NCBI GenBank assembly: GCA_020072785.1
Contig: JAIQGG010000001.1
Span: 496,001-560,000, forward strand
Length of the DNA stretch: 64,000 nt
DNA from: Terriglobia bacterium
Lineage (GTDB): Bacteria; Acidobacteriota; Terriglobia; Acidiferrales; UBA7541
Reading direction: 5' to 3'
Numbering within the stretch: position 1 is the first letter of the stretch; every line of letters starts with the position of its first letter. The position numbers were made by a program, and so were the translations under genes. This document shows positions 31,897 to 58,502 of this stretch, piece by piece. The notes under the pieces are model-generated. The model had not been told where the DNA came from, ran no database searches, and worked only from the letters and a program-made list of their open reading frames with translations.

Positions 31897-31904
31897 GGCG
31901 GGGC

Positions 31905-33772: not shown

Positions 33773-33848
33773 GGGCGTGTAGCTCAGCTGGGAGAGCACC
33801 TGCTTTGCAAGCAGGGGGTCAGGGGTTCGAGCCCCCTCACGTCCACCA
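33773..33848 (+). tRNA. tRNA-Ala (anticodon TGC)
   Basis: Full cloverleaf: acceptor GGGCGTG (33773-33779) pairs with CACGTCC (33838-33844), discriminator A, encoded CCA (33846-33848). D arm GCTCAGCTGGGAGAGC; anticodon stem-loop CCTGC-TTTGCAA-GCAGG with anticodon TGC; T arm AGGGGTTCGAGCCCCC. Its 3' end (33828-33849) is repeated at 58481-58502, the layout of a tRNA-gene integration site. Confidence 0.97.
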
Positions 33849-33849
33849 A
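33828..33849. repeat. Putative att site, left copy (3' end of tRNA-Ala)
   Basis: The 22 bp from the T loop to just past the encoded CCA. The same orientation copy at 58481-58502 differs by a single C to T. T-loop-to-CCA segments are the classical attachment core of tyrosine integrases. Confidence 0.8.
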
Positions 33850-33972
33850 CTTGCTGCCCACAATTCAATCTTCTGAAGTTTCTCCACTCCTTCGACCGTT
33901 CGGAGTGGACGTCCTATCCGCGCCACGCCTCGTGCGCGAGGTTGCACACCGGAATCAGACTGGCCGAAGTGC

Positions 33973-36312
33973 TCAGGCTGGCTCGAGCTTCCCGAGTGCC
34001 GCCAGTATTTTTTCAGGGGTGATGGGCAATTCGCGCACCCGCACGCCGATGGCGTTATAGACGGCATTGGCGATGGCCGGGGCGGGCACAATCAGACACG
34101 GCTCCGCAAGAGACTTGGCGCCGAAAGGCCCCGTAGGCTCATCCGACTCGACCCACAGGCACTTGATCTCCGGGGGCATTTCCAGGGCGGTGGGCATCTT
34201 ATAGTTGAGGAAATCGGAGGCCAGGCACGCACCGCTGGAGCGGTCGAAGACCAGATTCTCCATTAGCGCGTAGCCTATGCCCTGCTGCAATCCTCCCTCC
34301 ACCTGCCCTTCCGCTCCCGAGGGGTTGATGACCTTTCCGATGTCGTGGGCGTAGGCAACGCGAAGAACTTTGACCTCTCCTGTCTCGGTATCCACTTCGA
34401 CTTCGACGAACTCCACGGCGGAGGGGGAGGGATTGGAGGTGGGAGCCAGACAGGCGATGCCCATAATGGTTCCCTTCTCTTCGAGCGGGGTGCGTTGCAT
34501 GCCGTCGGGCACCATGTTGACGCAGGGAGATTCGGCGCGCTTCACGACGTCGGCAAGCGACATTCCGTTTGCCGGCGCACCTTTCACCTGCACCCGCCCG
34601 TCGACGATCTCCAGATTTTCGGGGGTGGTGTTCAGCAAACCGCTGGCCACCTGGAAAACCCGCACCTTGGCCGACGCGGCTGCGGCCTTCACCGCATTAC
34701 CCGCCGAATAGGTGACCCGGCTGGCGTGGCTGGGGGCATCGAAGGGGACGGTATCGGTATCCGCATAGGTGACCCGGATGTCCTTGACCGCTACACCGAG
34801 CTCTTCGGCGGCGATCTGGCTGAGGACCGTGTTCTGCCCGCAACCCATATCCACCGTAGCGATGGACACGTTCACCGTGCCGTCCGTGTTCAGCTTGAGG
34901 ACGGCGCCGGAATGCTCATAGATGTCCGGGAAGCCTACGCAGCCGCTGACCCACAGCGGTTGGCAAGCGAATCCGATGCCGCGTTTTTTCGTGCCGTTGC
35001 CGGCGCCGGCCGGGAGCCGTTTGGACCAGCCGATCTGCTCCGCACCCTTCTTCAGGCAGTCGGCAAGGCGATAGGTGGAAAGGGTGAAGTTGGGGTCGAA
35101 GGGGTGCTGCTCGCCTTCGCTGTGGGCATTCTTCAGCCGAAACTCGATGGGATCGAGCTTCAGCTTGTCGCAGATCTCATCGATCTGCGATTCGACGGCA
35201 AACGCGGCCTGCGGCGCGCCGTAGCCGCGGAACCCCCCGCCGATGATGTTGTTGGTGTAAACGGTCATGCCTTCCCATTTCTGATTCGGACAGCGGTAGG
35301 GGAGGAGAAAACCGAAGAAGCCATGGACCATGAGAACGACGGCGCCATGCGTGGCATGCGCACCGGTGTCCAGAATGCTCTTGGCGGAGCGGGCGATGAA
35401 GGTGCCGTCCTTCTTGACCCCGGTCTTCATGTGCACTTCGAAGGGATTCCGGGCAGTGGTGATGAAGTCCTCATAACGCGAATGCTCGATGCGCACCGGC
35501 CGGCCGGTCTTCAGGCTCAGCAGCGCGGCCACCGGTTCCAGGAAACCCATGTCCAGCTTGCCGCCGAAACCACCGCCGATATATTCCGGCTTCACCGCGC
35601 GCACCTTGCTGATGGGAATGCCCAGGGCGAAAGCCAGCTTTTCCCGCAGGCCGAAGATGTGCTGGGTGGAAGACCAGATGGTGAGATTGCCGCTGGTGTC
35701 GCTGTCCACGACGCAGACCCGGGGCTCCATATAGCAGGTGTGCACCCGCTGCGTGCGGTAGGTGTTCTCGAAAACGTAGTCGGCCTCGTCGAAACCTTTC
35801 TGCAGATCGCCGAAGCTGAACGACGGATTCATGACGACGTTGCTCGGCGCGTGCTCATAGATCTGCGGGGCGCCCGGTTTCATGGCCTCGGCCGGATCGA
35901 AGACGGCGGGGAGGGGCTCATAATCCACGCGGATCAGCTCGAGCGCTTCCTCGGCAATCTCGGGCCGTGTGGCGGCCACCGCGGCCACCGGCTCACCGGC
36001 AAAGCGGACGGTGCTGGCCAGGATCAGCATGTCCCGGACCATGCTCGCGGCATTGCTCGGCGAAAAATAGACGGGGTGATACTTGATCTGCGGCACGTCC
36101 GCAGCCGTGAGGACAGCCTTCACGCCCGGAAGCTTCTCCGCGCGCGAAGTGTCGATATGGAGGACGCGGGCGTGCGGATGCGGACTGCGCAGGAGCTTGG
36201 CGTGGAGCATGCCCGGCAGCCGGAGATTGACGGTATAGCCCTTGCCCCCGGTGACCTTATCGTAGGCATCCGTCCTGAGAACGCTGTGGCCGACAATCTT
36301 CAATCTGGACAT
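33973..36312 (-). CDS. Molybdenum hydroxylase large subunit (xanthine dehydrogenase family)
   Basis: 779 residues. Binds the molybdopterin (MCD or MPT) cofactor and hydroxylates a substrate carbon with water-derived oxygen. IVGHSVLRTDAYDKVTGGKGY start, GGGFGGK cofactor loop, NNIIGGGFRGYGAPQ, a DMGCGQNT stretch and the catalytic Glu in FGAKSLAEPCL are all present. Family includes CO dehydrogenase, 4-hydroxybenzoyl-CoA reductase, nicotinate and quinoline dehydrogenases; the substrate is not readable. The three-gene order (FAD, 2Fe-2S, Mo subunit, all minus strand) makes a complete enzyme; gap to the 2Fe-2S gene is 24 bp. Confidence 0.92.
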   Translation of the reverse strand: MSRLKIVGHSVLRTDAYDKVTGGKGYTVNLRLPGMLHAKLLRSPHPHARVLHIDTSRAEKLPGVKAVLTAADVPQIKYHPVYFSPSNAASMVRDMLILASTVRFAGEPVAAVAATRPEIAEEALELIRVDYEPLPAVFDPAEAMKPGAPQIYEHAPSNVVMNPSFSFGDLQKGFDEADYVFENTYRTQRVHTCYMEPRVCVVDSDTSGNLTIWSSTQHIFGLREKLAFALGIPISKVRAVKPEYIGGGFGGKLDMGFLEPVAALLSLKTGRPVRIEHSRYEDFITTARNPFEVHMKTGVKKDGTFIARSAKSILDTGAHATHGAVVLMVHGFFGFLLPYRCPNQKWEGMTVYTNNIIGGGFRGYGAPQAAFAVESQIDEICDKLKLDPIEFRLKNAHSEGEQHPFDPNFTLSTYRLADCLKKGAEQIGWSKRLPAGAGNGTKKRGIGFACQPLWVSGCVGFPDIYEHSGAVLKLNTDGTVNVSIATVDMGCGQNTVLSQIAAEELGVAVKDIRVTYADTDTVPFDAPSHASRVTYSAGNAVKAAAASAKVRVFQVASGLLNTTPENLEIVDGRVQVKGAPANGMSLADVVKRAESPCVNMVPDGMQRTPLEEKGTIMGIACLAPTSNPSPSAVEFVEVEVDTETGEVKVLRVAYAHDIGKVINPSGAEGQVEGGLQQGIGYALMENLVFDRSSGACLASDFLNYKMPTALEMPPEIKCLWVESDEPTGPFGAKSLAEPCLIVPAPAIANAVYNAIGVRVRELPITPEKILAALGKLEPA

Positions 36313-36336
36313 GATCCGTCCCCCTAAAAGAATCCC

Positions 36337-36801
36337 TCAACGGCCGGATGCGGCCATGCGAATCGCATCCACCGTCTTGTGATAGCCGGTGCAACGGCAC
36401 AGGTTGCCGGAGATGGCCTGGCGGATCTCCGGATCGCTCGGTGCACGCGCACTCGAGAGAAACTCTTTGGCGGCCATAATCATGCCGCTGGTGCAATAGC
36501 CGCACTGGACGGCCCCCGCCTGAATAAAGGCTTCCTGGAGCGGATCAAGCTTGCCGGCCTTTGCCAGTCCTTCGATGGTGATGATCTTCTTGTCCTGCGC
36601 GGCCATGGCGAACACCATGCAGGAATAGACAGCGCGGCCGTCCAGCAGGACCGTGCAGCAGCCGCAGCCTCCGGAATCGCACCCCTTCTTGGGGCTGAAC
36701 AGACCGAGCTCTTCCCGCAAAACGTCGAGCAGCGTGGAAGAGGCCTCCACTGCGAGTTCGTGACGTTCCCCGTTCACTTCAAGAATCATCGGATGTTTCA
36801 T
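36337..36801 (-). CDS. Molybdenum hydroxylase 2Fe-2S subunit
   Basis: 154 residues. Two [2Fe-2S] clusters: plant-type ferredoxin cysteines at 41, 46, 49 and 61 (KGCDSGGCGCC...SC), and the helical-domain cysteines at 100, 103, 135 and 137 (QCGYC...CRC). It passes electrons from molybdenum to FAD. Complete and normal in length. Confidence 0.95.
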   Translation of the reverse strand: MKHPMILEVNGERHELAVEASSTLLDVLREELGLFSPKKGCDSGGCGCCTVLLDGRAVYSCMVFAMAAQDKKIITIEGLAKAGKLDPLQEAFIQAGAVQCGYCTSGMIMAAKEFLSSARAPSDPEIRQAISGNLCRCTGYHKTVDAIRMAASGR

Positions 36802-36896
36802 GGTTCGCTCCCCGTCTGCACGCCTTGTTCTTTCCGCGCCGGAAAATCATTGCCGCACCACCGGCAAATTTATTGCCCGTCCGCCGCGCACCGGCC

Positions 36897-37784
36897 TCAG
36901 GCGATCGTCAGGCCCAAGCGTTCCGCAGCCCGCAAAAGTGTCCTGCGCAGATAAACCTTGGCCACCGCCCGCCGGTATTGTCCCGAGGCCCGGTGGTCGG
37001 AAACCGGATGAATGTCCGAGGAAACCTTCTGCGCCGCGCTCTCGAACAGGGCCCGCGAGGGGCGCTGCCCGTTCAGCACGGCTTCGCAGGACACCGCGCG
37101 CACCGGCACCTTGCCCACGCCGCCGCCCATCACGACGCGGGCATCCCGGCACAGGCCGGACTGGTCCAGCGTGAGGCGCACTCCGGCATTGAGCAGAGCG
37201 AGATCGTTCGAATTGGTCTCCAGCTTGAGGAAGGCGCTGGCCGAACGCGCAGCAGGCTTGGGCAAGAGCACGTCGGTGAGGATCTCGCCCTTCTCCAGGG
37301 AGTGCTCGAAGTAGTCCACAAAAAACTTTTCCAGGCCGATCTCCCGGGGACCGCGCGGCCCCAGGGACTTCACGGAACCATCGAGAGCCATCAGGGCCAC
37401 CGGCAGGTCGAACAAGGAGTAGGCGCTGGCCACGCACCCGCCGACCGTGGCCAGATTGCGGATTTGCGCCGGCGGATACTGCAGAGCATCCCGGAGCGCG
37501 CCGAACTCCGGCATCTTCTTGACCTGGTCGGTCTCCGCCAATTCCCGGAAAGTGGTCATCGCCCCGAGAGCGATGCCGCCGTTCTCCGCTCGCACATACG
37601 AAAGTCCGGCTTTTTGCAGATCCACAAGAAACTCGACCCCGGAGCCCAGCCCGCGGGCGAAGAGGCCATGCAGGAAGGTTCCGCCCGCCAGGAGCACCGC
37701 ACGGTCGCCATGTCTGGCGAGAAGCTCCACGACATCGCGCGCGCTTTGTGGCCTGCAGAATTCCTTGACTCCCGAGATGCCCAT
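36897..37784 (-). CDS. Molybdenum hydroxylase FAD-binding subunit
   Basis: 295 residues. FAD-binding motifs AGGTFLHG (about 33-40) and IRNLATVGGCVA (about 108-119), with a C-terminal CO-dehydrogenase-type domain. It has no extra 4Fe-4S insert, so it is not of the 4-hydroxybenzoyl-CoA reductase beta type. 95 bp separate it from the 2Fe-2S gene. Confidence 0.92.
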   Translation of the reverse strand: MGISGVKEFCRPQSARDVVELLARHGDRAVLLAGGTFLHGLFARGLGSGVEFLVDLQKAGLSYVRAENGGIALGAMTTFRELAETDQVKKMPEFGALRDALQYPPAQIRNLATVGGCVASAYSLFDLPVALMALDGSVKSLGPRGPREIGLEKFFVDYFEHSLEKGEILTDVLLPKPAARSASAFLKLETNSNDLALLNAGVRLTLDQSGLCRDARVVMGGGVGKVPVRAVSCEAVLNGQRPSRALFESAAQKVSSDIHPVSDHRASGQYRRAVAKVYLRRTLLRAAERLGLTIA

Positions 37785-37897
37785 CCTGCCCTCCTCGCGT
37801 AGAACACGGCCCAGCCATGCAGCCGGCAGTCCTTCTATCCGGAAGCGGCAGCAGGCATCCGGCCTGCCGCCGCCCCGGCCATCCTCCGCTTTACTTC

Positions 37898-40800
37898 CTA
37901 GAAGCTGAACCGCAGGGCGAACTGGAGTTGGCGCATGTCGCCAACGCTGCGCGGCAGGCCGAAGCCTGGCTGCGCGCCCTGCACGCCATCGCCGTAGTGC
38001 TGCGGTATCGGCCCGATGAAATCCGCATTCGCGTAGATGTTGTCCACATCCAGCACATTGACGCGGTTCAGCAGGTTGAATATCTCGCAGCTGAACGTCA
38101 TCTTCACGGAGTGCTGCGAGACCTCGAAGGGGAAAGCGCGCTGCATCCGGATGTCAAAATCCCGGAACGCGTCGCCCCTGTAGGTATTCCGTCCCAGCAG
38201 TCCGACCCGGTCGGAAAAGGGGAAGCCGTCTCCGTTGGAGTCGAATCCGACCAGGACAGACTGATAGCGAGCGCTCTGCACCGTCGCCGTCAGCGCCAGG
38301 CTCCAATCTTTCACCGCGGCGTTGTGGAAGGGCGAATCGCCCAGCGCGGTAAGGATGAAGCGATGGGGAACGTGGTTGTCCGAAATCCCGTGCTCCAGGT
38401 CTCTCCGCAGGTAATTCTGCGGGCCGGTGGCGAACTGGATCGTGGTCTGGTTGTCGATGGACTTCGACCAGGTGTAATTGGCATTTATGCTGTAGTGGTT
38501 CTTGAAACGCTTATTGAACGTCAGGAATCCGGCGTGATACATGGATTTCGCATCCGGGGAATCCAGAAAGGCAAACCCGAAGTTGGGGTCGGCCAGCGTG
38601 AGCGCCTGCTTGCCATCGGGCAAGGTACCGTTTGGCGCGGCGTTGGCGTTGCCGAAATAATGGATCCGCAGCGCATGCACGTAGGAGTAGCCAATCGACA
38701 TCTGCATGTCCGCTCCGAGGCTGCGTTCCACCTGCAGGCTGGCATTTTCCGAATAGGGATTCGGGAAGTGCTTGGTCGTAAATCCGTGCGAGAACCCGAT
38801 TAACTCGTCCGGCGCAGGATAGGACCCCGTGCTGGTGAAATTCGCGAACGCCGTCGCCGCCGGTATCCCGCCGGGGCCGGGGAACGCCACGCCCACCGGG
38901 CCGAACTCGGCCAGGCCGACGAGGCTCTGCGCGGGATTCACGAAGGGCCCCACCAGCGGATTGTGCAGGTAGCCGGTGATCGGTCCGAACGCCGTGGTCG
39001 TGCCTGTCAGCTCGCTCCAGTTGAAAGGGCCAAAATAGATGCCAAAGCCCCCGCGCACCACGGTTTTGTCGTTGAAGGCATAGGAGAAACCAACGCGCGG
39101 CTGCACGTCGCGCCAATCCTGGTCATACCAGTTGCGATCGTGGAACGGCCGGGTCTCGAAGTCGTAGCGCAGCCCGTAGGTCAGCGTGAGATGCGTGATG
39201 GGTTGCCATTTGTCCTGCAGGTAAAAGCCGGCAATCTGCCGTGTAAAGTTCGCCGAGGACGCCTTATCGAACGCGTCCAGCATCGACTGCGGCAGCAGGC
39301 TGGCCTGCCAATCCGTGCCCCGCGGCAGCAGTTGCTGTCCCCACAGCGACCTCGGCATGCCGAAGTAGAACACCACCGCGGTCGGCTCGGTGAACGGTGG
39401 CAGTCCGAAGTAGCTTTCCGGGGAGAAGACCGACACCGCCGGCGTGAACATCGGCGATTTCGTGGAGTCCCAGATCTCGTGGAATTCCCCGCCGAATTTC
39501 ACCGTGTGCTTGGAATACGTCCGGGTCATGTTCTGGCCAAACTGCAGCCGCGTCTCGCGATAGAAAGTAAAGCTTCCCACCGGGCCGCCGGATTGCACCA
39601 GATTGGGGATGGCCATGAATGGTTCGCGGCCGGCGCCCACCGGATCCAGATGGAAAGTACGGCGAGCGAACTGAAACACAGTATCCCCCGTGAGATTGGG
39701 GGAGAAGGTATGAATCAGGTTTGCCGCCAGCGACTGATCCCGGATCGGATTGTCCCGAAAGGTGCTGGGCAAACCCAGCCCCGGAGGCGCGCCGGGACTG
39801 TTGGGATTGCGTTCGTCGGAGAACAGATAACGCACCGCCAGCAAAGTACTGCCGGTGAACTGATGGTCCAGCTTGCCGATCAGCTTGTCGTAGTCGTTCA
39901 CCATCAGGATGGACCCCAAATTCTCCTGCGACAATCCAAAGAACTGCTTGGTGGCGTTGATCCCCCCGATTGCCGATTGAATGAACGAAGAATAGCGCGG
40001 CGACTGCGCTCGTCGCTGCCCCTCGTAACCGGTGAAGAAGAAGGTCTTGTCCTTGACGATGGGTCCGCCCAGGGTGCCGCCGAACTGATTGAGGCGCAAA
40101 GTGTCCATGCCTGGCACCGAGAGCGGATTGCCGGCATCCAGGGCGTTATTGCGGAAATATTCGTAAACTGTACCGTGCATCACGTTGCTGCCCGAGCGCG
40201 TGACCGTGTTCACGATGCCGCCCAGTGTACGGCCCACTTCGGAATCGTAGCTGCTCGTCACCACGCGGAACTCCTGCACCCATTCCTGCGCCGGGGAACT
40301 CCGCTGCAGGCCGGAAAGACTGGTCGTGTAGTCCACTCCGTCGAGGGAGATGAACACCGAGTGGGATTCCCGCACGCCGGCAAAGCTCAGCTTGGGCGTT
40401 TGCTCGGTGAACGGCGCCTGGCTTCCGACGGAAGTGCTGTTTCCCAGGGTTACCTCGGGGGTCAGCATCACGAAGTCGATGAAGTTGCGGCCCTTGATCG
40501 GCAGGTCCACGATCTGGCGCTCGCTGATCACTTCGCTAACCTGCGACTTCGTCGGCTGGATGCCTTCCTCTTCTGTGGCCGTGACGGTCACCGCGGCGGC
40601 GGCGGCTTCGACCGCCAGTGTTATCGTCAAGGAAGCGCTCTGCCCCACTTGCATATGCAGCGTCTTCGCCGCCGGCTTGAACCCTCGAAACTCGACGTGC
40701 AATTCGTACTCACCCGGCGGAATGTTCGTAATCCGCCCGACCCCGTTCTCATCGCTCTCCGTCTGGCGTTGCAGTCCCGTGCTTGTGCTGGTCAGAATGA

Positions 40801-40969
40801 TCGAGGCTTTCGAGATCGCACCGCCACTCGCATCCTGGACGGACACCGACAGATCCGCGAGAGTTTGGGACTGAACTGCGGGTGCATACAGCGACAAGCA
40901 CAAAAGCAAAAGACAGGCACCCCAGGTCACATAGCCGGGAAATAGCCAACGATTCATATGCGTCTCCAC
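37898..40969 (-). CDS. Oar-like TonB-dependent receptor (island copy 1)
   Basis: 1,023 residues. Signal peptide, then a carboxypeptidase-regulatory-like beta-sandwich (ADLSVSVQDASGGAISKASI, about 38-120), a plug with DLPIKGRNFIDFVMLTPEV, and a long barrel ending in LPRSVGDMRQLQFALRFSF. Outer-membrane uptake or surface protein typical of Acidobacteriota. Highly similar to the receptor at 53365-56526 (same block RESHSVFISLDGVDYTTSLS, GLQRSSPAQEWVQEFRV), so they are paralogues carried by the same island. A strong promoter lies upstream. It precedes the molybdenum hydroxylase genes by 113 bp and may be read through into them. Confidence 0.9.
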   Translation of the reverse strand: METHMNRWLFPGYVTWGACLLLLCLSLYAPAVQSQTLADLSVSVQDASGGAISKASIILTSTSTGLQRQTESDENGVGRITNIPPGEYELHVEFRGFKPAAKTLHMQVGQSASLTITLAVEAAAAAVTVTATEEEGIQPTKSQVSEVISERQIVDLPIKGRNFIDFVMLTPEVTLGNSTSVGSQAPFTEQTPKLSFAGVRESHSVFISLDGVDYTTSLSGLQRSSPAQEWVQEFRVVTSSYDSEVGRTLGGIVNTVTRSGSNVMHGTVYEYFRNNALDAGNPLSVPGMDTLRLNQFGGTLGGPIVKDKTFFFTGYEGQRRAQSPRYSSFIQSAIGGINATKQFFGLSQENLGSILMVNDYDKLIGKLDHQFTGSTLLAVRYLFSDERNPNSPGAPPGLGLPSTFRDNPIRDQSLAANLIHTFSPNLTGDTVFQFARRTFHLDPVGAGREPFMAIPNLVQSGGPVGSFTFYRETRLQFGQNMTRTYSKHTVKFGGEFHEIWDSTKSPMFTPAVSVFSPESYFGLPPFTEPTAVVFYFGMPRSLWGQQLLPRGTDWQASLLPQSMLDAFDKASSANFTRQIAGFYLQDKWQPITHLTLTYGLRYDFETRPFHDRNWYDQDWRDVQPRVGFSYAFNDKTVVRGGFGIYFGPFNWSELTGTTTAFGPITGYLHNPLVGPFVNPAQSLVGLAEFGPVGVAFPGPGGIPAATAFANFTSTGSYPAPDELIGFSHGFTTKHFPNPYSENASLQVERSLGADMQMSIGYSYVHALRIHYFGNANAAPNGTLPDGKQALTLADPNFGFAFLDSPDAKSMYHAGFLTFNKRFKNHYSINANYTWSKSIDNQTTIQFATGPQNYLRRDLEHGISDNHVPHRFILTALGDSPFHNAAVKDWSLALTATVQSARYQSVLVGFDSNGDGFPFSDRVGLLGRNTYRGDAFRDFDIRMQRAFPFEVSQHSVKMTFSCEIFNLLNRVNVLDVDNIYANADFIGPIPQHYGDGVQGAQPGFGLPRSVGDMRQLQFALRFSF

Positions 40970-40975
40970 GTTTCG

Positions 40976-41004
40976 ATTTTTTTGGTGCAGTAATTCTGTG
41001 TCAA
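40976..41004 (-). promoter_or_regulatory. Promoter of the receptor gene (minus strand)
   Basis: On the minus strand: TTGACA (41004 to 40999), 17-bp spacer, AAAAAT (40981 to 40976), only 6 bp before the receptor start codon as annotated. The -35 is perfect and the -10 matches at 4 of 6. Confidence 0.55.
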
Positions 41005-41070
41005 GCCCCCCAGGTGTTTTCCTTGGCCCACTTGCATTGAGAAACGGCGAAATAGATAAAACAGGATCGG

Positions 41071-41979
41071 TCAGCCGGCCTTGCCCTGGCTATAAGCGGG
41101 CGCGGTTTGCGGAGCAAACAGCCCGGACTTCAGCATCAGCATCATCATCGAAAAGTCGCCGGCCAGTTCGCAGGCGGCGATCAGCAGGACCAGCCAGGAG
41201 GTCTGCACGCTGTCGTGCAGCAGCGAAAGAAGCAAGGTCGCCACGATTCCCACCAGCACAACGAGTCCCAAGAACAAACCCGCATAGCGTCCCCGGAGCC
41301 ACTGCCGCAGCGTTTCGCGCGCCGCCGGAAGCGACCGGTTCATCCGCAACAAATAAATGCCCAGGAGGAAGAAGTTCGCGACGAGCAGGCCATGTTCGAG
41401 CGTCGGGAGAATCTCCGGAGGAACCTCTCCCCGAATCTCGTGAATGGTCAGGGACATCGTGATGCCTCCAAGGGTGGCGTACATGAACAACAAAAGCGGC
41501 AGAAGCAGCGTCCGCCAAAACGCCACTCCGGCGGAAGATCTCATGAGGAAGCCGTCGTAGCACGCAATGAACAACGCGGAAGCAGCGGCGAGTGCGTAGG
41601 TCAAGTTGGCGGCCCATTCCGGGAAGTGAAGCAAGGGCGAGTGCGCACGGAGCAAAACGCTCAAGAAACCGGTCACCGCAAAGACGCCCGTGGCCCAGAT
41701 TCCGCGGGCAATCCAGGAGCGGTCCGGCCTAGCGGCGGCGCGCAGAAACCGCTCCGGCCGCCCCAGAAAGGCGAGATGCGCGCTGTTCTTGCCGACGACG
41801 ACGATTAGGACACCCGCCAGCATTCCCACAACGTGCCCCGTCAGCAGCGAGACCAGAAATAATCCCCCGCCCACACCGCCGAGGAAAAAGGCGGTTCCGA
41901 TCAGCCAGTTCCAGAACGTCTGGCGGTGGTATCCAAAGGCGAACCGGTGTGGCGCAATCAACAACTCTCGTGTCGTCAT
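41071..41979 (-). CDS. NrfD-family membrane subunit (quinone-linked)
   Basis: 302 residues from ATG 41979 (MTTRELLIAPHRFAFGYHRQ). Eight or so membrane segments, beginning WLIGTAFFLGGVGGGLFLVSL, a NrfD/PsrC-type signature. It would anchor the ferredoxin subunit and exchange electrons with the quinone pool. Last gene of the Rrf2-molybdoenzyme-MoaD-ferredoxin-NrfD operon (34-bp gap). Confidence 0.88.
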   Translation of the reverse strand: MTTRELLIAPHRFAFGYHRQTFWNWLIGTAFFLGGVGGGLFLVSLLTGHVVGMLAGVLIVVVGKNSAHLAFLGRPERFLRAAARPDRSWIARGIWATGVFAVTGFLSVLLRAHSPLLHFPEWAANLTYALAAASALFIACYDGFLMRSSAGVAFWRTLLLPLLLFMYATLGGITMSLTIHEIRGEVPPEILPTLEHGLLVANFFLLGIYLLRMNRSLPAARETLRQWLRGRYAGLFLGLVVLVGIVATLLLSLLHDSVQTSWLVLLIAACELAGDFSMMMLMLKSGLFAPQTAPAYSQGKAG

Positions 41980-42013
41980 ATCGTTTCTCCGCTTCAATCC
42001 CCGGATCGGCACG

Positions 42014-42628: not shown

Positions 42629-42654
42629 TGCAGCACCTCACAGAGTGATACCCG

Positions 42655-42942: not shown

Positions 42943-42951
42943 AATGGCCCC

Positions 42952-47512: not shown

Positions 47513-47565
47513 GGTGTACCTCCCGCGGCGTCCAGGTGATCTTGAAATTGCCTCCGTGGGACGGG

Positions 47566-49763: not shown

Positions 49764-49770
49764 AGAAGAT

Positions 49771-50283
49771 ATGAAGAGCACTTCAGCCGAGGACTTTGAC
49801 CCGAAGGATTACCGCCGCACGCTCGGGCAGTTCGCCACGGGCGTCACCGTGGTCACCACCCGGGGCCAGGACGGCCGCTTCATCGGCCTGACCGTCAATT
49901 CCTTTACTTCCGTTTCGCTCCAGCCGCCGCTGGTCCTCTGGTGTCTCGTCCGGCAATCGCCGAGCCTGGCAGCCTTTCAAGGGGCCAGCCACTTCGCGAT
50001 CAATATTCTGGCGGCCGGGCAGCACGGCTTGTCCCGGCAGTTTGCTTCGCAGGTTCCCGACCGGTTTGCAGGGGTTGAGCTGGAGGAGGGGAAGGCCGGT
50101 GTGCCGCGCTTGAAGGGCGTCGCGGCCCAGTTGGTTTGCCGGAACGCGGGGCAATTCGACGGCGGCGATCACATCATTTTTCTGGGGCAGGTGGAGGAAT
50201 ACCTCCGGTCCGAGGAAAAACCTCTGCTGTTCCACTCCGGGCGCTATCGCAGCGTGACGCCGCATCCCGATTTCCCGGAATGA
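49771..50283 (+). CDS. Flavin reductase family protein (StyB/HpaC-like)
   Basis: 170 residues. Split-barrel flavin-binding fold with YRRTLGQFATGVTVVTT, GLTVNSFTSVSLQPPLVLWC and HFAINILAAGQ. It supplies reduced flavin for the monooxygenase encoded divergently. It follows the SDR with a 7-bp gap, in one operon. Confidence 0.9.
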   Translation: MKSTSAEDFDPKDYRRTLGQFATGVTVVTTRGQDGRFIGLTVNSFTSVSLQPPLVLWCLVRQSPSLAAFQGASHFAINILAAGQHGLSRQFASQVPDRFAGVELEEGKAGVPRLKGVAAQLVCRNAGQFDGGDHIIFLGQVEEYLRSEEKPLLFHSGRYRSVTPHPDFPE

Positions 50284-50395
50284 GGCGCGCCATTCCGCTG
50301 TCCGGGAAGCGGCCAGCCGCCACGGCTGCCGCTTTCTGGCCCCCGCAAGAATTCAGCAATGCTCGAACGCGGCTACGATCTCCGGGCCCGCCCGC

Positions 50396-51496
50396 TCAGT
50401 CGGCCGGAACCTCTTCGGTTTTCGGCTGGGCTTTTGTCTTGGTTGGGCGCCGGTAGATTCCCCTCTCCACCATCTCTGCCAGCACGCGGTGCCGTATGGC
50501 GTCGTGATCCGCATGCCCGCCGGGATGCTTCTTCAGGCCGAGGTTTTTCGGGTACAAGGGTTTTTCGTAGATGCAGCGGAACTGTTCGGTGCGCAGATCG
50601 CGGAGCCAGTTCCCCCACAGCGAGCGCGTGCGGTATTGCCGCAGCGCCTCGATATCGATGATCGCTCCGGCGTAGGAAGGCCCCGCGCCGTACTCGTGCT
50701 GCGAAAGCACCCGGCCCTGATAGTCCACGATCATGGATTTGCCGCCGAAAGTATCCAGTGCGTCTTTCGAATCCTGCATGAGGTAGTAGTTGGCGGGGTT
50801 CGGCGCCACCACGTAGCAGGTATTGTCCAGGGCGCGGGCGCGGTTCTGCACCTCCCAGAGGCCGTTGGCGACATAGGGTTCGGGATACGCGGGCCGGTAA
50901 AGGACTTCGGCGCCGTTCATGGCCATGCCGCGGGCCGTTTCCGGGAAGGATCCGTCCATGCAGATCACGCAGCCGATCCGCCCGATCTCCGTATCGGCCA
51001 CGGGAAAGAAGGAATCGAGGCCGTCGCCGTAGAGTTCGACCCACTTGTCCCACACGTCGTGGGGCACGGTCGAGTGCTCGCGGGCGAAGACCTGGAGCTT
51101 GTGGTATTTATAAATCACCTCGCCGGTCGGCGCGATGATGAAAGCGCCGTTGAAGAACTTCCTGGGAAACTCGGGATGCTTGATCTTGGCCTGGGCGATG
51201 ATGAAAGCGTTGTGCTGCTTGGCTTTGCGCCCCAGCATCTCCGTCTCTGGGCCGGGGATGTCCAGGGCCATCTCCTCCACGTATTTTTCGTGATCCCAGT
51301 CGAAGACCTCGTCGGTGAAACCCTGCAGGCAGCCTTCCGGAATACAGATCAGGCGCACGGGCAGGTCAATGGAACTGAGCCAGATGGAAGCGTCGATCAG
51401 GTCCGAAATATGCCGGATGTTGACCTCGACTTCCGAGCGCTTGGTGCAGCCACGCATGGTGGGCTGGAGCGCAAGAGCCATATATTGCTCGATCAT
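50396..51496 (-). CDS. Nitrilase-superfamily amidohydrolase (active triad)
   Basis: 366 residues from ATG 51496, with a strong AAGGAGG site. Carbon-nitrogen hydrolase fold with Glu54 (CIPEGCLQG), Lys133 (YHKLQ) and Cys179 (VICMDGSFPE), the full triad. Hydrolyses a nitrile, amide or carbamoyl bond; substrate not assigned. It is a close paralogue of 56616-57683 in the same island, where the Cys is lost. The C-terminal end is extended and positively charged (RRPTKTKAQPKTEEVPAD). Confidence 0.88.
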   Translation of the reverse strand: MIEQYMALALQPTMRGCTKRSEVEVNIRHISDLIDASIWLSSIDLPVRLICIPEGCLQGFTDEVFDWDHEKYVEEMALDIPGPETEMLGRKAKQHNAFIIAQAKIKHPEFPRKFFNGAFIIAPTGEVIYKYHKLQVFAREHSTVPHDVWDKWVELYGDGLDSFFPVADTEIGRIGCVICMDGSFPETARGMAMNGAEVLYRPAYPEPYVANGLWEVQNRARALDNTCYVVAPNPANYYLMQDSKDALDTFGGKSMIVDYQGRVLSQHEYGAGPSYAGAIIDIEALRQYRTRSLWGNWLRDLRTEQFRCIYEKPLYPKNLGLKKHPGGHADHDAIRHRVLAEMVERGIYRRPTKTKAQPKTEEVPAD

Positions 51497-51626
51497 GACA
51501 ATCCTCCTTGGCGGGTCTACAGCATGTGCTGAAACCGGGACGTCGGTGAGTGCGCCTTCCGAGGCGCGCCGGGATGCGCCGGATGAAGAGTATTCAACAC
51601 CCGAACGCATGCCCCGTCAAGAAGTT

Positions 51627-51641
51627 GACCGCTTGGCGGTC
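51627..51641. repeat. REP-like palindrome GACCGC-TTG-GCGGTC
   Basis: Single palindrome in the gap between the nitrilase and aldehyde dehydrogenase genes. It shows that the repeat family also occurs inside the putative island. Confidence 0.8.
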
Positions 51642-51723
51642 ACAGTAATAATGACGGGCCGCCTGAGGCACACTGCGCGGGCCCTGGGACGCTCCGTTCC
51701 GGAGGTTGTCCACGCCAGAACCT

Positions 51724-53205
51724 TTACGAGCCGGAAGCTTCGGCCACTTCAAATGGGTAGTGCCGGTGCGTGCGCTGCACGGAGATCCACTTCAGAGTGG
51801 TGAACTCCTCCAGCGCCCAGCGGCCATTGAGCCGTCCGATGCCCGAAGCTTTTTCGCCTCCAAAGGCAATGGTGGGTTCGTCGCTGATGGTGCCGTCGTT
51901 GACGTGGATCATGCCGGAGTCGATCTCTTTGGCCAGCTCCGCGCCGTGCTCCAGGTTGCGCGTATGAATGGCCCCGCTCAACCCGTACGGGCTGTTGTTG
52001 GCCACGGCGATGGCTTCTTCTTCGGTATCGAAGGGCATGACGCACACGGCCGGGCCGAATAGCTCATTCTGCGCGACGTACATCTCGGGCTTCACATCGG
52101 CAAAGATCGTCGGGGACACCAGGTTGCCTTCCGCTTTGCCGCGCAGTACCGGCTTGGCGCCTTCGTCCACGCCCTTCTGGATCTGCCGGGCGAGGGTATC
52201 GGCCTGGGCCTTGTTCATCAGCGGGCCAATATCGGTCTGCGGATCTCGCGGATCGCCCACTTTGAGCCCGGAAACCCGCTGCACATATTTCTCCAGGAAT
52301 TGCTTGTACAGGCTGCGATGCACCAGGATGCGGTTGGCGGACATGCAGATCTGCCCCTGGTGCGTGAAGCGGCTAAAGACCGCGGCATTGAGGGCATAGT
52401 CCAGATCGGCATCCGCAAGAATGATGAAGGCGCTGTTGCCGCCCAGCTCCAGAATCGCTTTCTTCAGGCAGCGGCCGGCGGATTCTCCGATGCGCCGGCC
52501 GACGCCTTCCGAGCCGGTGAAGGAGATGACGCGGGGAATGGGGTGCTCGACGAAGTTGTTTCCGATTTCCGCGATGTCTGCGATGACCACGTTCAACAGG
52601 CCCTTGGGGATGCCCGCCGCTTCGAAGATCCGGGCAACGAGCGTGCCGCCGGTGATGGCCGTATCATCGTGCGGCTTGAGAACCACGCCATTGCCCGCGC
52701 CCAGCGCCGGGGCCACCGAACGCATGCTCAGGAAGAAGGGGAAGTTGAACGGGCTGATAACCCCCACGACCCCGACCGGGATGCGGTAGAGCCTGTTTTC
52801 CTTGCCTTCGACTGTGGAGGGCAGGATCTCGCCGGTCATGCGCAGGGGGAAGGTGGCGGATTCCTTGATGATGTTTTTCACCAGGCCGATTTCAAAAAAG
52901 GCCTTGAGGCGCGTGCCGCCGAGTTCCTCGATAATCATGTCGGTGATGTCGCCTTCGTTCTGCTCCACGAAGGTGATCGCCTTCTCGAGGATGGCGCGTT
53001 TCTCGAAGGGATTGACCGCCGCCCAGACCTTCTGTGCCGCCGCTGCCGCGCGATAGGCCGCATCGAGATCCGCCAGGCTCGCCAGCTTGAACTCGGTAAT
53101 GGGCTTCCCGTTGTAGGGATTCCTGTCCGTCAGCGTCTTCTGGCTCGCGCCGTCGCGCCATACTCCGCCGATGTACTGCTTATTGAGTGCCGCAAACTGG
53201 TTCAT
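51724..53205 (-). CDS. Aldehyde dehydrogenase (NAD(P)-dependent)
   Basis: 493 residues from ATG 53205 with GGAGG 5 bp upstream. GVISPFNFPFFLSMRSVAPA, catalytic Glu in ELGGNSAF and Cys in THQGQICMSANR, with NELFGPAVCVMPF. Resembles benzaldehyde / phenylacetaldehyde / vanillin-type dehydrogenases, though the exact substrate is open. In context it could oxidise an aldehyde formed after monooxygenase action. Confidence 0.92.
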   Translation of the reverse strand: MNQFAALNKQYIGGVWRDGASQKTLTDRNPYNGKPITEFKLASLADLDAAYRAAAAAQKVWAAVNPFEKRAILEKAITFVEQNEGDITDMIIEELGGTRLKAFFEIGLVKNIIKESATFPLRMTGEILPSTVEGKENRLYRIPVGVVGVISPFNFPFFLSMRSVAPALGAGNGVVLKPHDDTAITGGTLVARIFEAAGIPKGLLNVVIADIAEIGNNFVEHPIPRVISFTGSEGVGRRIGESAGRCLKKAILELGGNSAFIILADADLDYALNAAVFSRFTHQGQICMSANRILVHRSLYKQFLEKYVQRVSGLKVGDPRDPQTDIGPLMNKAQADTLARQIQKGVDEGAKPVLRGKAEGNLVSPTIFADVKPEMYVAQNELFGPAVCVMPFDTEEEAIAVANNSPYGLSGAIHTRNLEHGAELAKEIDSGMIHVNDGTISDEPTIAFGGEKASGIGRLNGRWALEEFTTLKWISVQRTHRHYPFEVAEASGS

Positions 53206-53314
53206 GGCCGTCCTCCGGACTTTCGAAAGGTATCGCGAAACTATACAGAATCCGCTTTGAACTTCCAGTAGTTTTCCGCCCCCCGCCGCGCAGGTCCGGG
53301 AGGAAAGACTATTG

Positions 53315-53343
53315 TTGACGCAACACGTGCCGAGTGCTAGTCT
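53315..53343 (+). promoter_or_regulatory. Possible promoter of the second Oar-like receptor
   Basis: TTGACG (53315-53320), 17-bp spacer, TAGTCT (53338-53343). The -35 is good and the -10 matches at 3 of 6. It is in the divergent gap between aldehyde dehydrogenase and receptor. Confidence 0.4.
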
Positions 53344-53364
53344 CCGTCAAATTTCAACTTCCGG

Positions 53365-56300
53365 ATGGGGGGGAACGTGCGACGCATATCCTTGGGATTG
53401 CTTGGGGTTACGATTCTCTTGCTGTTGGTTTCCGCCAATAGCGTGTCTGCGCAGCAGTTCGCGACTTTGAATGTGACGGTGAACGACCAGTCGGGCGGGG
53501 CCGTCCCCAACGCCAACTTGACACTGAAGAACACCGCCACGGGTGTCGAACGCACCGCGGTCACGGGGGAGGGCGGACTTGCCGTCATCCCCAGCGTCCC
53601 GGCAGGGAGCTATGCCCTGACGGCGACGCATGCCGGGTTTGCGGCGCACACGGTCACAGTTCAGCTTGCCGTCGGTCAGATCGCCTCGGTGACCATCTCC
53701 CTGGGAGTTTCCGCGAAGGCGGAGACCGTCGAGGTGACGGAGACCGCGCAGGCCGTGGACCCCGAGAAGGCGGAAGTCAGCCAGGTGATTGACACGCCGA
53801 AGATCAAGGACCTGCCGATTTCCGGGCGCGACTTCATCGACTTCGTTCTGCTCACGCCTTCGGTGAGTATCGGGCGCAGCACGGCCGTGGGGGCGCAATC
53901 GCCGTTTACGGAGACGGTGCTGAAGCTGAGTTTCGCGGGAGTGCGTGAGAGCCACACGTCCTTTTATTCCTTGGACGGGATCGACTACAACACCAGCATT
54001 TCCGGCGTGCAGCGCATCAGCCCCTCGCAGGACTGGGTGCAGGAATTCCGCGTCGTGGACAGCCCTTTCACCGGGGACAACGGCCGCAACCTGGGTTCCG
54101 TGGTCAATACGGTCACCAAGTCGGGCACCAATGACGTGCACGGCACGCTCTACGAGTTTTTCCGCAACAACAAGATGGATGCCAAGAACCTGCTCTCCGC
54201 CCCGGGTTTCGACACGCTGCGCTTCAACCAGTTCGGCGGCACGGTGGGCGGGCCGATTCGGAAGGACAAGCTGTTCCTCTTCGGCGGCTACGAAGGGCAG
54301 CGCCGGGCGGATTCACCCATCTATTCCTCCTTGATCCTGGGCTGCACCGACAACCCAGGATGCTTCGGCCCCGGCAGTCTGAGCATCAACCAGGTGAAAC
54401 AACTTCTCGGATTGCAGCCCGAGGTGCTGAACTCCTTTCTGAGCATCGATGACTACGACAAGATGATCTTGAAAAGCAACGCCATCGTGAGCAGCAAGAC
54501 GTTTCTCAACCTGACCTACCTGTTCAACGATTCGCGCAAGCAGAATGTGCGCGGCGCGGCGCCGGGCGAAGGCATGCCTTCTTCCTATCGGGACAACCCC
54601 GTGCGCGACCAGACCGCCTACGGCAGCCTGGTCCACCTGTTTTCTCAGGCGCTCACCTCCGAGACGCTTTTCCAGTACGGACGCCGGAAGTTCGACCTGA
54701 TCCCCAAGGGGGCCGGTCTGGAACCCGCCATTGCCGTTCCGGACATGCTGTCCTCGGGCGGCTTCGTCGGCAGCGTCCGGGCGTATACGGAACAGCGCAT
54801 TCAGGCGGCCGAGAACCTGACCTATGTGCGCGGGAACCATACCTTCAAGTTTGGCGGCGACATCGAGCCGGTCTGGATCGATACCCAGGTCACCTTGTTC
54901 AGCCCGGGGGTGGGCATCTTTTCTCCAGGTTGCTTCTTTGGTGGCCCCTCCGGGTGCGCCGGCGCTCCGCAAGGCGTATTTTCCCCGGGCACGGCGCTGG
55001 CTTTCCTCTTCCTCGAGCCTCGCGAACTCTTCGGCCAGCAGATCCCGCAGCGGACACTGCCTTTCTCCACGGGCCTGTACGCCGGCCCTTCGCAGCAGGC
55101 CTTCGATGACGCGACCTCTCTAAACTTCGAACACACCCTGTGGTCGATGTATGCCCAGGACCTTTGGAAGGCGCGGCCCAACCTCACCGTTACCCTCGGC
55201 CTGCATTACGACGTGGATACCTTTCCGTCCGCGGCGGACGTGAAAATCCAGGGCAAGTTCCATCCCACCAACTATGGCAATATCCAGCCGCGCGCGAGCC
55301 TGGCGTATTCCTTCCACAACGGTAAGGGCGTGGTGCGTGCCGGCGCGGGCCTGTTCAACTCGCCGTTTGTCTTCAGTGACGTTTTGGTGAGCTGGATCGG
55401 CGCCTCGGAATTCACCTACATGAACCAGCCGCTGTTGTCGGAGTTCAGTGATCCCACCAACCAGTTGATTGGCTTTGGGGCCTCCGGTGCAGTGGGTGCT
55501 CCCGGGCCGGTGTTTGGCGGCATCGGGTTCAGCAATTTTACCCACTTCGGCATTTATCCGGATCCGACAGAGAGTCCGGTGTTGCAGTTCCCCTTGGGGT
55601 ACGCCAAACGCGAATTCAAGAATCCCATCGCCACGCAGGCCAGCCTGGAAATTGAACACCAGGTTGGCAAGGACTTCGTCGTCTCGTTGGGATACCAGTG
55701 GATGCACGCCACGCGCCTGCCGGTCTACTACAGCATCAACGGGACGCCGGTAACCAATGGTGCGGGGGTGGAGCAGTGCAATCCGGCTATCACCAGCGGC
55801 TGCTCGCCGTACTTTACGCCCACCGATCCCAACTTCGGGTTTGCGCTGTACGTCAAACCCGGAGGATTCTCGATTTACAATGCGGGCACCGTCAGCGTGC
55901 GCAAATCCTTCTCGCACCACTATGACTTCCTGGCCAATTACACCTACTCGAAGTCCATTGATATCTCGACAACCGTCAACCTGCCCAACGTGCCGGTAAA
56001 TTTCGTCCATCCGAGCCTGGACCGGGCCGTCGGGGACAACAACATCCCGCACCGGCTCACCCTGGCGCTGCTTGGGGAGACCCCGGACACCTGGAATGTC
56101 GTGCTGCGCCATTTCAAGGCCTCGGTGCTCACCAACCTGCAGAGCGCGCGGCGCTATAGCATCGTTGCCGGCTTCGATACCAACGGCGACCTTTTCCCCT
56201 TCCCCGACCGCGTGGGGGTTATCGGCCGGAATACGTATAAAGGGGACCCCAGCCACACGGTGGATCTGCGCATCCAGCGCGTGATTCCCGTCAACGAACG

Positions 56301-56526
56301 CGTCAATGTGGAGCTCAGCGCGGAGATCTTCAACCTGCTCAACCGTGCCAACGTGCTGGAAATCGACCACGCCTATGGGCTGCCGGATTTCGTGACCGCG
56401 GTTCCCCAGCAGTACAAGGACGGCATTGCTCCCCCGCTGTCTTCGGGTGGCAATCCCTCGTTCGGGTCGCCGAAATTTGCCGGCCCGGCGCGGCAAGTCC
56501 AATTGTCGCTGCGCTTGAATTTCTAG
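53365..56526 (+). CDS. Oar-like TonB-dependent receptor (island copy 2)
   Basis: 1,053 residues from ATG 53365; GTG 53377 directly after a G-rich stretch is an alternative start. Signal peptide to SAQQ, regulatory-like beta-sandwich (ATLNVTVNDQSGGAVPNANL), plug (DLPISGRDFIDFVLLTPSVS, SFAGVRESHTSFYSLDGIDY) and barrel ending in FAGPARQVQLSLRLNF. Clear paralogue of 37898-40969. Plausibly takes up the island's substrate or a related compound. It precedes the pseudo-nitrilase and isochorismatase genes on the same strand. Confidence 0.9.
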   Translation: MGGNVRRISLGLLGVTILLLLVSANSVSAQQFATLNVTVNDQSGGAVPNANLTLKNTATGVERTAVTGEGGLAVIPSVPAGSYALTATHAGFAAHTVTVQLAVGQIASVTISLGVSAKAETVEVTETAQAVDPEKAEVSQVIDTPKIKDLPISGRDFIDFVLLTPSVSIGRSTAVGAQSPFTETVLKLSFAGVRESHTSFYSLDGIDYNTSISGVQRISPSQDWVQEFRVVDSPFTGDNGRNLGSVVNTVTKSGTNDVHGTLYEFFRNNKMDAKNLLSAPGFDTLRFNQFGGTVGGPIRKDKLFLFGGYEGQRRADSPIYSSLILGCTDNPGCFGPGSLSINQVKQLLGLQPEVLNSFLSIDDYDKMILKSNAIVSSKTFLNLTYLFNDSRKQNVRGAAPGEGMPSSYRDNPVRDQTAYGSLVHLFSQALTSETLFQYGRRKFDLIPKGAGLEPAIAVPDMLSSGGFVGSVRAYTEQRIQAAENLTYVRGNHTFKFGGDIEPVWIDTQVTLFSPGVGIFSPGCFFGGPSGCAGAPQGVFSPGTALAFLFLEPRELFGQQIPQRTLPFSTGLYAGPSQQAFDDATSLNFEHTLWSMYAQDLWKARPNLTVTLGLHYDVDTFPSAADVKIQGKFHPTNYGNIQPRASLAYSFHNGKGVVRAGAGLFNSPFVFSDVLVSWIGASEFTYMNQPLLSEFSDPTNQLIGFGASGAVGAPGPVFGGIGFSNFTHFGIYPDPTESPVLQFPLGYAKREFKNPIATQASLEIEHQVGKDFVVSLGYQWMHATRLPVYYSINGTPVTNGAGVEQCNPAITSGCSPYFTPTDPNFGFALYVKPGGFSIYNAGTVSVRKSFSHHYDFLANYTYSKSIDISTTVNLPNVPVNFVHPSLDRAVGDNNIPHRLTLALLGETPDTWNVVLRHFKASVLTNLQSARRYSIVAGFDTNGDLFPFPDRVGVIGRNTYKGDPSHTVDLRIQRVIPVNERVNVELSAEIFNLLNRANVLEIDHAYGLPDFVTAVPQQYKDGIAPPLSSGGNPSFGSPKFAGPARQVQLSLRLNF

Positions 56527-56615
56527 CGGCTTCCGGAACACTGCAGCAGAACCCGCGCAAGGCCGGCGCATCCGTTTCCGCTGCGCCGGCCGCGCGCGAA
56601 TCAGCAGGAAAATCC

Positions 56616-57683
56616 ATGATCAAGCCCTATACCGCCGTCGGTCTTGTGCCCACCATCCGCGGGATCCGCTCCCGCAAGGACATCAAGATCAATCTGGACC
56701 ATCTGAAGCATCTGGTGAAGGCCGCCAACTGGCTCTCCGCCATGGATCTGCCGGTGCGGCTGATGGCCATCCCCGAGGGCGCTTTGCAAGCCTTCAATGA
56801 CGAAGTGCTCGACATGGACCATGTGCAGTACGCGCGGAAATGCGCCATCGATATTCCGGGCGAGGAGACGGAAGAAATCGGCAAGATCGCTCGCGAATGG
56901 GACTGTTTCATCATGGCCCAGGCCAAGGCGCGCCACCCGGACTGGAAAGACCGTTTCTTCAATGTGGGCTTCATTCTCAATCCCAAGGGAGAAGTGATTC
57001 TGAAGCATTACAAGGTGTCCCCGCTGTATCCGGTGGAGCATTCCGTCTGCCCGCATGACATTTACGATTGGTGGATCGAGAAGTACGGACGCAACCTGGA
57101 CGCCTTCTGGCCGGTCGTGGACACCGAGATTGGCCGGATGGGCATCATGATGGCCAACGAAGGATCGTATCCCGAAAATGCGCGGGCCCTGGCGATGAAT
57201 GGCGCGGAAATCGTTTACCGGGCCTCCTACCCGCATCCCGGCAGCGGCAACGACTTCTTCGAGATCCAGAGCGCGGCCCGCGCGCTGGACAATAATATGT
57301 ACATTATGGCGCCCAATCTGGGGACCTATTTCCTTTTCCCCGAGGACACCACGCCCATTGATACTTTTGGCGGACGCTCTTATATCTTCAATTACAAGGG
57401 CCAGAAGGTCGGCAAGCTCGAGTACAGCGGCGGATCGAGTTACGTCGCCGGCGTGATCGATGTGGAAGCCCTGCGCGACCACCGCGCCCGCGCGCAATGG
57501 GACAACTGGATGAAGGACATCCGCTCCGAGCTCTATCAGATCGTCTATGAAAAGCCCATCTATCCCAAGAACCTCTATTTGAACCGCGTCCCGATGAAAC
57601 ACGCTGAATACCGGGAGAAAGTCATCAAACGCCAGATCGCTCTGATGCACGAACGCGGCATCTGGAAGAAGCCGGAACGCTGA
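56616..57683 (+). CDS. Nitrilase-fold protein lacking the catalytic cysteine
   Basis: 355 residues. Close paralogue of 50396-51496 over its full length (same PVRL..IPEG, YPKNL segments). Glu54 and Lys133 remain, but the position matching catalytic Cys179 is Ala180 (codon GCC at 57153-57155, in GIMMANEGSYPE). So it should not work as a normal nitrilase; it may be a regulatory or scaffolding partner of the active paralogue, or bind a ligand. There is no frameshift or stop and the frame is well kept, which suggests it is still selected. 30 bp before the isochorismatase gene. Confidence 0.85.
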   Translation: MIKPYTAVGLVPTIRGIRSRKDIKINLDHLKHLVKAANWLSAMDLPVRLMAIPEGALQAFNDEVLDMDHVQYARKCAIDIPGEETEEIGKIAREWDCFIMAQAKARHPDWKDRFFNVGFILNPKGEVILKHYKVSPLYPVEHSVCPHDIYDWWIEKYGRNLDAFWPVVDTEIGRMGIMMANEGSYPENARALAMNGAEIVYRASYPHPGSGNDFFEIQSAARALDNNMYIMAPNLGTYFLFPEDTTPIDTFGGRSYIFNYKGQKVGKLEYSGGSSYVAGVIDVEALRDHRARAQWDNWMKDIRSELYQIVYEKPIYPKNLYLNRVPMKHAEYREKVIKRQIALMHERGIWKKPER

Positions 57684-57713
57684 GCCTGTTTTCTTGCCGC
57701 CAGCCATTGGAGG

Positions 57714-58400
57714 TTGCCGATGCCCCACCAAGACCGTGCATCCCGGAAAAAATTTTTCACGGTGGACCCCCGGCGTTGCGCCCTACTCGTCATCGACATG
57801 CAGAACGCCTTTGTGGCCGAGGGCGAGCCGTTCGAAACGCCGCCGGCGCGCGCGATGGTTCCGCGCCTCGAGCGTCTGATCCGGTTTTGCCGCGAACGCG
57901 AGATGCCCATCGTCTGGACCCAGTCGGATCACCGGCCGCCCTATGGCGGCCTGATGCTGCAGAAGTTTCCCGTCATCGGCGAGCAGCGCGTCCTGTGGCA
58001 GGGCGAGCCGAGCTTTGAGATGTATCCCCACATGCTCCAGCCGCAGGAAGCGGTCTCCGAGTACCGGCTGGTCAAGCATAAGTTCGACGCTTTTTTCGAA
58101 ACCGGCCTGGACGCCATTCTGCGCTATCACCACACGGATACCGTAATCATCACCGGAACCGCCACCAACGTCTGCTGCGAATCCACGGCCCGTGCTGCGT
58201 TCATGCGTGACTACTATGTGGCATTTCCCAGCGATGCCAATGCGTCATTCGATCCGGCCATGCACGAGGCCACACTGAAGAACATCGACTTATTCTTTGG
58301 CAGAGTGATGACCACTGAGGAGCTTCTGGCGGAAATGGAAGCGGCGATTGCGGAGACCTCCACGGCGGCGCAGCGCCGCACTCGGAAGCCGCGGCCCTGA
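57714..58400 (+). CDS. Isochorismatase-family cysteine hydrolase (amidase type)
   Basis: 228 residues. Triad Asp28 (LLVIDMQNAF), Lys121 (LVKHKFDAF) and Cys154 (TATNVCCESTAR) fit amidohydrolase members such as RutB, N-carbamoylsarcosine amidohydrolase or maleamate amidase, rather than true isochorismatase. Likely cleaves an amide or carbamoyl group late in the pathway. Last gene before the right att copy, and coupled to the pseudo-nitrilase by a short gap. Confidence 0.9.
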   Translation: MPMPHQDRASRKKFFTVDPRRCALLVIDMQNAFVAEGEPFETPPARAMVPRLERLIRFCREREMPIVWTQSDHRPPYGGLMLQKFPVIGEQRVLWQGEPSFEMYPHMLQPQEAVSEYRLVKHKFDAFFETGLDAILRYHHTDTVIITGTATNVCCESTARAAFMRDYYVAFPSDANASFDPAMHEATLKNIDLFFGRVMTTEELLAEMEAAIAETSTAAQRRTRKPRP

Positions 58401-58480
58401 GCCCTGCAGGGGCCCTGGGAGCGTCCGCCCGGCCGCATGCGCGAGATGTGAAAAACTGTTGGCTGATCTCGTAGCCCGGG

Positions 58481-58502
58481 CGAGCCCCCTCACGTCTACC
58501 AA
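58481..58502. repeat. Putative att site, right copy (tRNA-Ala 3'-end fragment)
   Basis: CGAGCCCCCTCACGTCTACC plus AA; 21 of 22 identical, in the same orientation, to 33828-33849. The single difference (C to T) lies in the acceptor-stem part. No other part of a tRNA is here, so it is a duplicated end, not a tRNA gene. It lies 80 bp past the last island gene. Confidence 0.8.

Follow-up and report, generated by a model that had tools for sequence, protein, structure and literature searches.

A probably layered stretch of catabolic genes between tRNA-Ala and glnD in a soil acidobacterium

Introduction

The tRNA-gene islands collected by Islander consist of a complete tRNA gene and a displaced fragment reaching its 3' end, located downstream in the same orientation; they span 2-200 kb, carry an integrase inside or overlapping the interval, may form tandem arrays, and show 5' fragments in 159 of 3919 islands (PMC4383910). 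In composite or accreted islands, such as CGI48 at tRNA-Trp in Shewanella, a single tRNA gene reportedly has more than one element stacked or nested at it (PMC8978831). Among catabolic gene sets, the closest published system is the iif cluster, which turns indole into anthranilate (PMC6221969, PMC4577076).

Here, we analyse a window of 64,000 nucleotides from a soil acidobacterium in which about 28 kb of foreign-looking degradation genes lie between tRNA-Ala and glnD. A preliminary description of this window had seen a single catabolic island of 24.65 kb, bounded by the tRNA gene and by a repeat of its 3' end. We compared the locus with relatives of the same genus, which are mostly draft, MAG-like genomes in which some contig errors are possible.

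Results

The tRNA gene and its displaced 3' end

The window holds a single tRNA gene (ARAGORN, 64-kb window), and the last 22 bp of this gene are repeated downstream in the same orientation, as had been described.

33773-33848, plus strand: complete tRNA-Ala(TGC) gene, the insertion target (ARAGORN)
58481-58502, plus strand: displaced 22-bp 3' end of tRNA-Ala, relic attachment scar (21/22 match)

The scar corresponds to tRNA positions 56-76 plus one base. The sequence CGAGCCCCCTCACGTCCACCAA is found at 33828-33849 with 0 mismatches and on the same strand at 58481-58502 with 1 mismatch, and its expected number of occurrences in shuffled sequence is zero. Across the whole 3.73-Mb genome, a 24-bp pattern of the tRNA-Ala 3' end (up to 3 mismatches) matches these two sites only, and the reversed pattern, used as a control, gives 0 matches. 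A longer tRNA piece was sought around 58.5 kb and nothing beyond the 22 bp was found, in agreement with the earlier account of the second site. The tRNA-Ala 3' halves in relatives are longer, at 45-48 bp. The copy is a genuine tRNA 3' end of the T-loop-to-CCA type that has been displaced, a relic attachment scar, presumably made by a tyrosine integrase that has since been lost.

An insertion hotspot between tRNA-Ala and glnD

In 13 of 13 genomes with both genes on one contig, a set including the window's own genome (G000) and that of its closest relative, a sister species (G007), tRNA-Ala faces glnD with the same polarity. The gap between them is smallest in G006 (about 40 bp) and G005 (about 300 bp), spans 4.6-24.5 kb in nine further genomes, and reaches 28.1 kb in the window and 52.8 kb in G007. 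G006 and G005 represent the empty site, with glnD 40-300 bp after tRNA-Ala; neither is joined exactly at the 22 bp, and G007 misses only block B (below) at this locus. At the threshold used, the inserts share no DNA except between G000 and G007 and in one 0.8-kb match between G004 and G048. Because the two genes face each other in all 13 genomes and the inserts are nearly all unrelated, tRNA-Ala followed by glnD is likely the ancestral order. The three genes of block C at 58.6-61.8 kb (kamA, PilZ-like and tonB) also belong to the inserted region.

58552-61900, plus strand: block C, older insert between scar and glnD
58642-60042, plus strand: KamA-family radical SAM protein
60178-60753, plus strand: PilZ-like protein
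60952-61824, plus strand: TonB
61938-63980, minus strand: glnD, 3' part of the gene (NCBIfam TIGR01693, E 3e-126; genus-wide synteny)

The conserved core neighbour, and the true distal boundary of the inserted region, is glnD at 61938. Ordinary core-type genes had been thought to resume at kamA, and relatives lacking the block had been expected to join tRNA-Ala to a kamA-like gene; they join it to glnD instead. As a candidate conserved neighbour, kamA was rejected since no relative has tRNA-Ala within 1.5 kb of it, though the gene occurs in other members of the genus. Block C is common to the window and G007 and partly to G009; of the genomes with tRNA-Ala and glnD on one contig, the other 11 have no match to it in the interval between the two genes. 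No tRNA remnant adjoins glnD (61.8-61.94 kb).

When contigs bearing glnD were searched for partial tRNA-Ala copies, all 12 copies had the orientation that accretion would produce and 0 had the opposite one; a reversed query gave 0, and three shuffled query sets gave 1, 0 and 1. Taken together, the 13/13 synteny and the 12:0 orientation establish the gap as a true insertion hotspot. In several genomes of the genus, tyrosine integrase genes lie about 20-650 bp from the complete tRNA-Ala, which, along with the displaced fragments and the two empty sites, upholds the proposal that this tRNA gene is an insertion target. Genome plasticity of this kind is ordinary, although the site is unusually busy.

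Fragments of the 5' half of tRNA-Ala (positions 1-38/41) were also observed (L053:2170, 6699, 9062; L054:2222, 7730; L056:1703, 4686; L088:15422). Among the matches listed, 5' and 3' halves are almost equally common in the genus (about 30 vs 27). In three genomes, the 5' half is followed by the shared element end TAAGCAGNNTAAATCACATAAGTGCCGC; a search of IMG/VR for this end of the 5'-half elements gave no match. At three places (L058:5430-6987, L059:2311-3919, L054:7730-9054), an integrase ORF or remnant immediately precedes tRNA-Ala or its 5' half and points toward it, so the upstream region of the tRNA may there be supplied by the element. We offer, as a speculative reading, that tRNA-Ala(TGC) of this genus takes insertions from both sides about equally, through 3'-half replacers and through 5'-half replacers, the latter with a common element end and an integrase immediately upstream. 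These would leave ladders of half-tRNAs, within which integrase-less catabolic modules like B would move between relic scars and other loci.

Gene content of blocks A and B

Between the tRNA gene and the scar, the inserted genes fall into two blocks, of which block A adjoins the tRNA.

33973-46728, mixed strands: block A (profile annotation of ORFs; same place in G007 at 89%)
33973-36312, minus strand: XdhA of an XDH-type molybdenum hydroxylase
36337-36801, minus strand: Fer2 of the XDH-type hydroxylase
36897-37784, minus strand: XDH FAD subunit
37898-40969, minus strand: TonB receptor
41071-42141, minus strand: NrfD of a DMSO-reductase-family complex
42014-42628, minus strand: 4Fe4S subunit of the DMSO-reductase-family complex
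42952-45477, minus strand: Mo subunit of the DMSO-reductase-family complex
45474-45962, minus strand: Rrf2
46037-46720, plus strand: PAS-LuxR

The XDH-type hydroxylase consists of three subunits, and the nearest solved structures of the DMSO-reductase-family complex are ArrA and thiosulfate reductase. In G053, XdhA-Fer2 lies near NrfD-FeS-Mo genes. G009 also has the right half of A, at a different position, which speaks against A being just a new acquisition at the tRNA. The junction between the tRNA end and A is common to the window and G007, which suggests that A already adjoined the tRNA before the two species split.

46922-58479, mixed strands: block B (profile annotation of ORFs; 95% copy at another G007 locus)
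46922-47512, minus strand: CMD-family protein
47566-48960, minus strand: indole-type monooxygenase
48975-49763, plus strand: SDR
about 49768-50283, plus strand: flavin reductase
50396-51610, minus strand: CN-hydrolase, first
51724-53205, minus strand: aldehyde dehydrogenase
53365-56526, plus strand: TonB receptor
56616-57683, plus strand: CN-hydrolase, second
57714-58400, plus strand: isochorismatase-fold hydrolase

The gene content is broadly as first described. The SDR (plus), the flavin reductase (plus), the CMD-family protein (minus) and the XDH FAD subunit (minus) lie on other strands than a naive reading suggests, and the label of a StyA-type monooxygenase had to be replaced. The closest solved structure of the monooxygenase is PDB 7z4x (E 6e-179), deposited as 'putative dehydrogenase/oxygenase', which we take to be the Acinetobacter indole monooxygenase; StyA itself (3ihm) is far more distant (E 4e-40). 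The set of monooxygenase, SDR and flavin reductase is syntenic with iif-type loci of Acinetobacter, where the proteins are 57-59%, about 58% and about 51% identical, respectively, and it matches Marinobacterium loci as well. Like the Iif/Ind cluster of Acinetobacter and Cupriavidus (PMC6221969, PMC4577076), B has a two-component indole-type flavin monooxygenase together with an SDR and a flavin reductase; unlike that cluster, it is accompanied by amidases, an ALDH, a CMD-family protein, an isochorismatase-fold hydrolase and a TonB receptor. No DLH domain, as expected for the dienelactone-hydrolase-like IifA that makes anthranilate, was present among the scanned ORFs of block B, and no AraC regulator of the Iif/Ind type was seen in the block. 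Judged by its sequence, B encodes an Iif/Ind-like indole-oxygenase module, the most likely substrate of which is indole or a similar indolic compound.

Mobility genes and composition

The absence of an integrase from the block, noted earlier, was borne out: a PF00589 profile search of the genome matched the window only at 5266-5727, with none in 33.8-62 kb. Relaxase or conjugation genes were likewise absent from the main ORFs of the block (Pfam). Given this gene content, the block in its present form is probably immobile. Measured by the features of Islander, the locus has an intact tRNA with a same-orientation downstream fragment reaching the 3' end, and both its lengths, 24.65 kb between the copies and 28.1 kb to glnD, fall within 2-200 kb; no integrase lies inside or overlaps the interval. 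Composition, which had been proposed as a source of island evidence, does not single the block out. GC is 0.613-0.615 in A and B, compared to 0.658 upstream and 0.634 downstream, and the tetranucleotide distance of the block is within the local range.

Comparison with G007 and Acidipila

In G007, A (window 33973-46728, 89%) joins the kamA block directly (window 58552 onward), and the 22 bp are absent at this junction. B lies on another G007 contig (C109), in another chromosomal neighbourhood, at 95% identity, and its homology ends at 58479/58480, exactly where the 22-bp copy starts. Both flanks of the G007 B locus map to a single region of the window's genome (G000:C3), where there is other DNA and no B; this argues against a chimeric G007 contig. 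Divergence from G007 at 4-fold sites is 0.237 in A, 0.212 in C and 0.108 in B (downstream values were left out because automatic frame choice was wrong for several genes). The different locus and the lower divergence indicate that B has a partly separate history. The repeat therefore delimits no single intact island today but encloses two or three pieces that differ in history, and the 22 bp are not a clean right end as first proposed. Relatives joined elsewhere than at the 22 bp had been named beforehand as an outcome against the island, and this has come about in part, in the tRNA-Ala-glnD joins and in the A-kamA join of G007 that lacks the 22 bp.

The tRNA side of G007 forms a ladder. It starts with the current tRNA-Ala, which has a different T-arm, and an integrase about 1 kb further on; these are followed by a 48-bp 3' half that matches the window's own tRNA exactly and, about 20 kb after it, by a decayed 3' half directly beside block A. 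In the Acidipila MAG G055, the order NrfD-FeS-Mo subunit-Rrf2-PAS/LuxR leads directly into a B-type cluster, with the same order and orientation, so that the DMSO-reductase-family complex of A is genetically linked to a B-type cluster in another genus. Since B and the right half of A are neighbours there, the two may have arrived in one entry, in which case G007 would be derived. The G055 cluster lacks the left half of A (XdhA, Fer2, TonB receptor). Searches for att-like direct or inverted repeats at the ends of B in G000 and G007 yielded 8-mers only. A tRNA remnant between A and B (46729-46921, 193 bp) was considered and rejected, as the best alignment was no better than shuffles or random segments.

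Several further observations concern the surroundings. The upstream flank (window 28316-32340, carboxylase and SurA/PPIase genes, vs L088:1-4032) is 97-100% identical to G007, compared to about 89% in A and C, which suggests recent recombination in the core. The left neighbour of B in G007 (L154/L155, C109) resembles a restriction-modification pair with the methyltransferase motif DPFMGTGTT (translated ORFs); a HAD-type phosphatase gene also neighbours B in G007. A short intergenic repeat (GACCGCGAAGCGGTC-like, about 45 bp) occurs in G007:C109 (L154:1-827, bases 604-680), with about 40 matches scattered through G000.

Discussion

We consider it probable that the locus has a layered history, in which a hotspot accumulated 28 kb in at least three layers and kept a relic scar, and that it is not one intact 24.65-kb island. 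Tyrosine-integrase elements would recombine into tRNA-Ala, replacing one half of the gene with their own and moving the previous half outward, a displacement seen in relatives and presumed for the window. Here, C at glnD would be the oldest layer, with A at the tRNA and B plus the 22-bp scar between them, the scar having been left by an element whose integrase has gone. The scar marks no single island because B has changed its position independently of A in one or both of the sister species. Weighing against the layered history are the contiguity of A's right half and the B-type cluster in G055, by which A and B may have arrived together, the junctions of B without att-like or inverted repeats, the different place of A's right half in G009, and the draft state of the relatives. 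A specific form of the layered history, to which we give a modest chance, places the attR of A at the A/C boundary, where B landed in the G000 lineage and cut the scar to 22 bp. The A/C boundary of G007 is indeed the position of B and the scar in the window, B is younger by divergence, and the scar is shorter than the 3' halves in relatives; yet no left part of a scar precedes B, the 193-bp gap scoring no better than random, the junctions of B lack repeats, and the G055 synteny would have to be a coincidence.

An integration of A and B in one event at tRNA-Ala beside C, with the 22 bp as attR and a later loss of B and the scar here from the G007 lineage, which has B elsewhere, has a similarly modest chance. 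It accounts well for A-right and B being contiguous and in the same order in Acidipila, for the scar lying exactly at the B/C boundary, and for A adjoining the tRNA 3' end in both species. It fits poorly with the unequal divergence of B and A from G007 and with the absence of A's left half from the G055 cluster, and B homology stopping exactly at the scar would need a second precise event. Very improbable is a 22-bp copy unrelated to insertion, arisen by chance or as a stray tRNA duplication: the block has no integrase and the fragment is shorter than most in the genus, but the expected number of such copies is zero, and the orientation bias of fragments on glnD-bearing contigs, a genus-wide polarity, comes close to refuting it.

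The locus shows how sets of catabolic genes build up and are rearranged at a single tRNA gene in uncultured acidobacteria. Across the genus, the same site is found empty or with one, two or several inserts, a natural series from which the order of insertion can be read. It is also a warning that a tRNA gene and a short 3' repeat alone do not delimit a single island.

Like the Islander islands, the locus combines a complete tRNA with a displaced fragment of the T-stem/T-loop end, at a size within their range, and tandem arrays are known among them (PMC4383910). Unlike them, the block is without an integrase, for which Islander would reject it, and is layered, its two main parts having partly separate histories. 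Compared to CGI48 (PMC8978831), the stacking or nesting of several elements at one tRNA gene is similar, whereas the present locus has no recombination genes left and its module B occupies another locus in the sister species. As a whole, this is a known kind of tRNA-gene island, with its boundary and history corrected.
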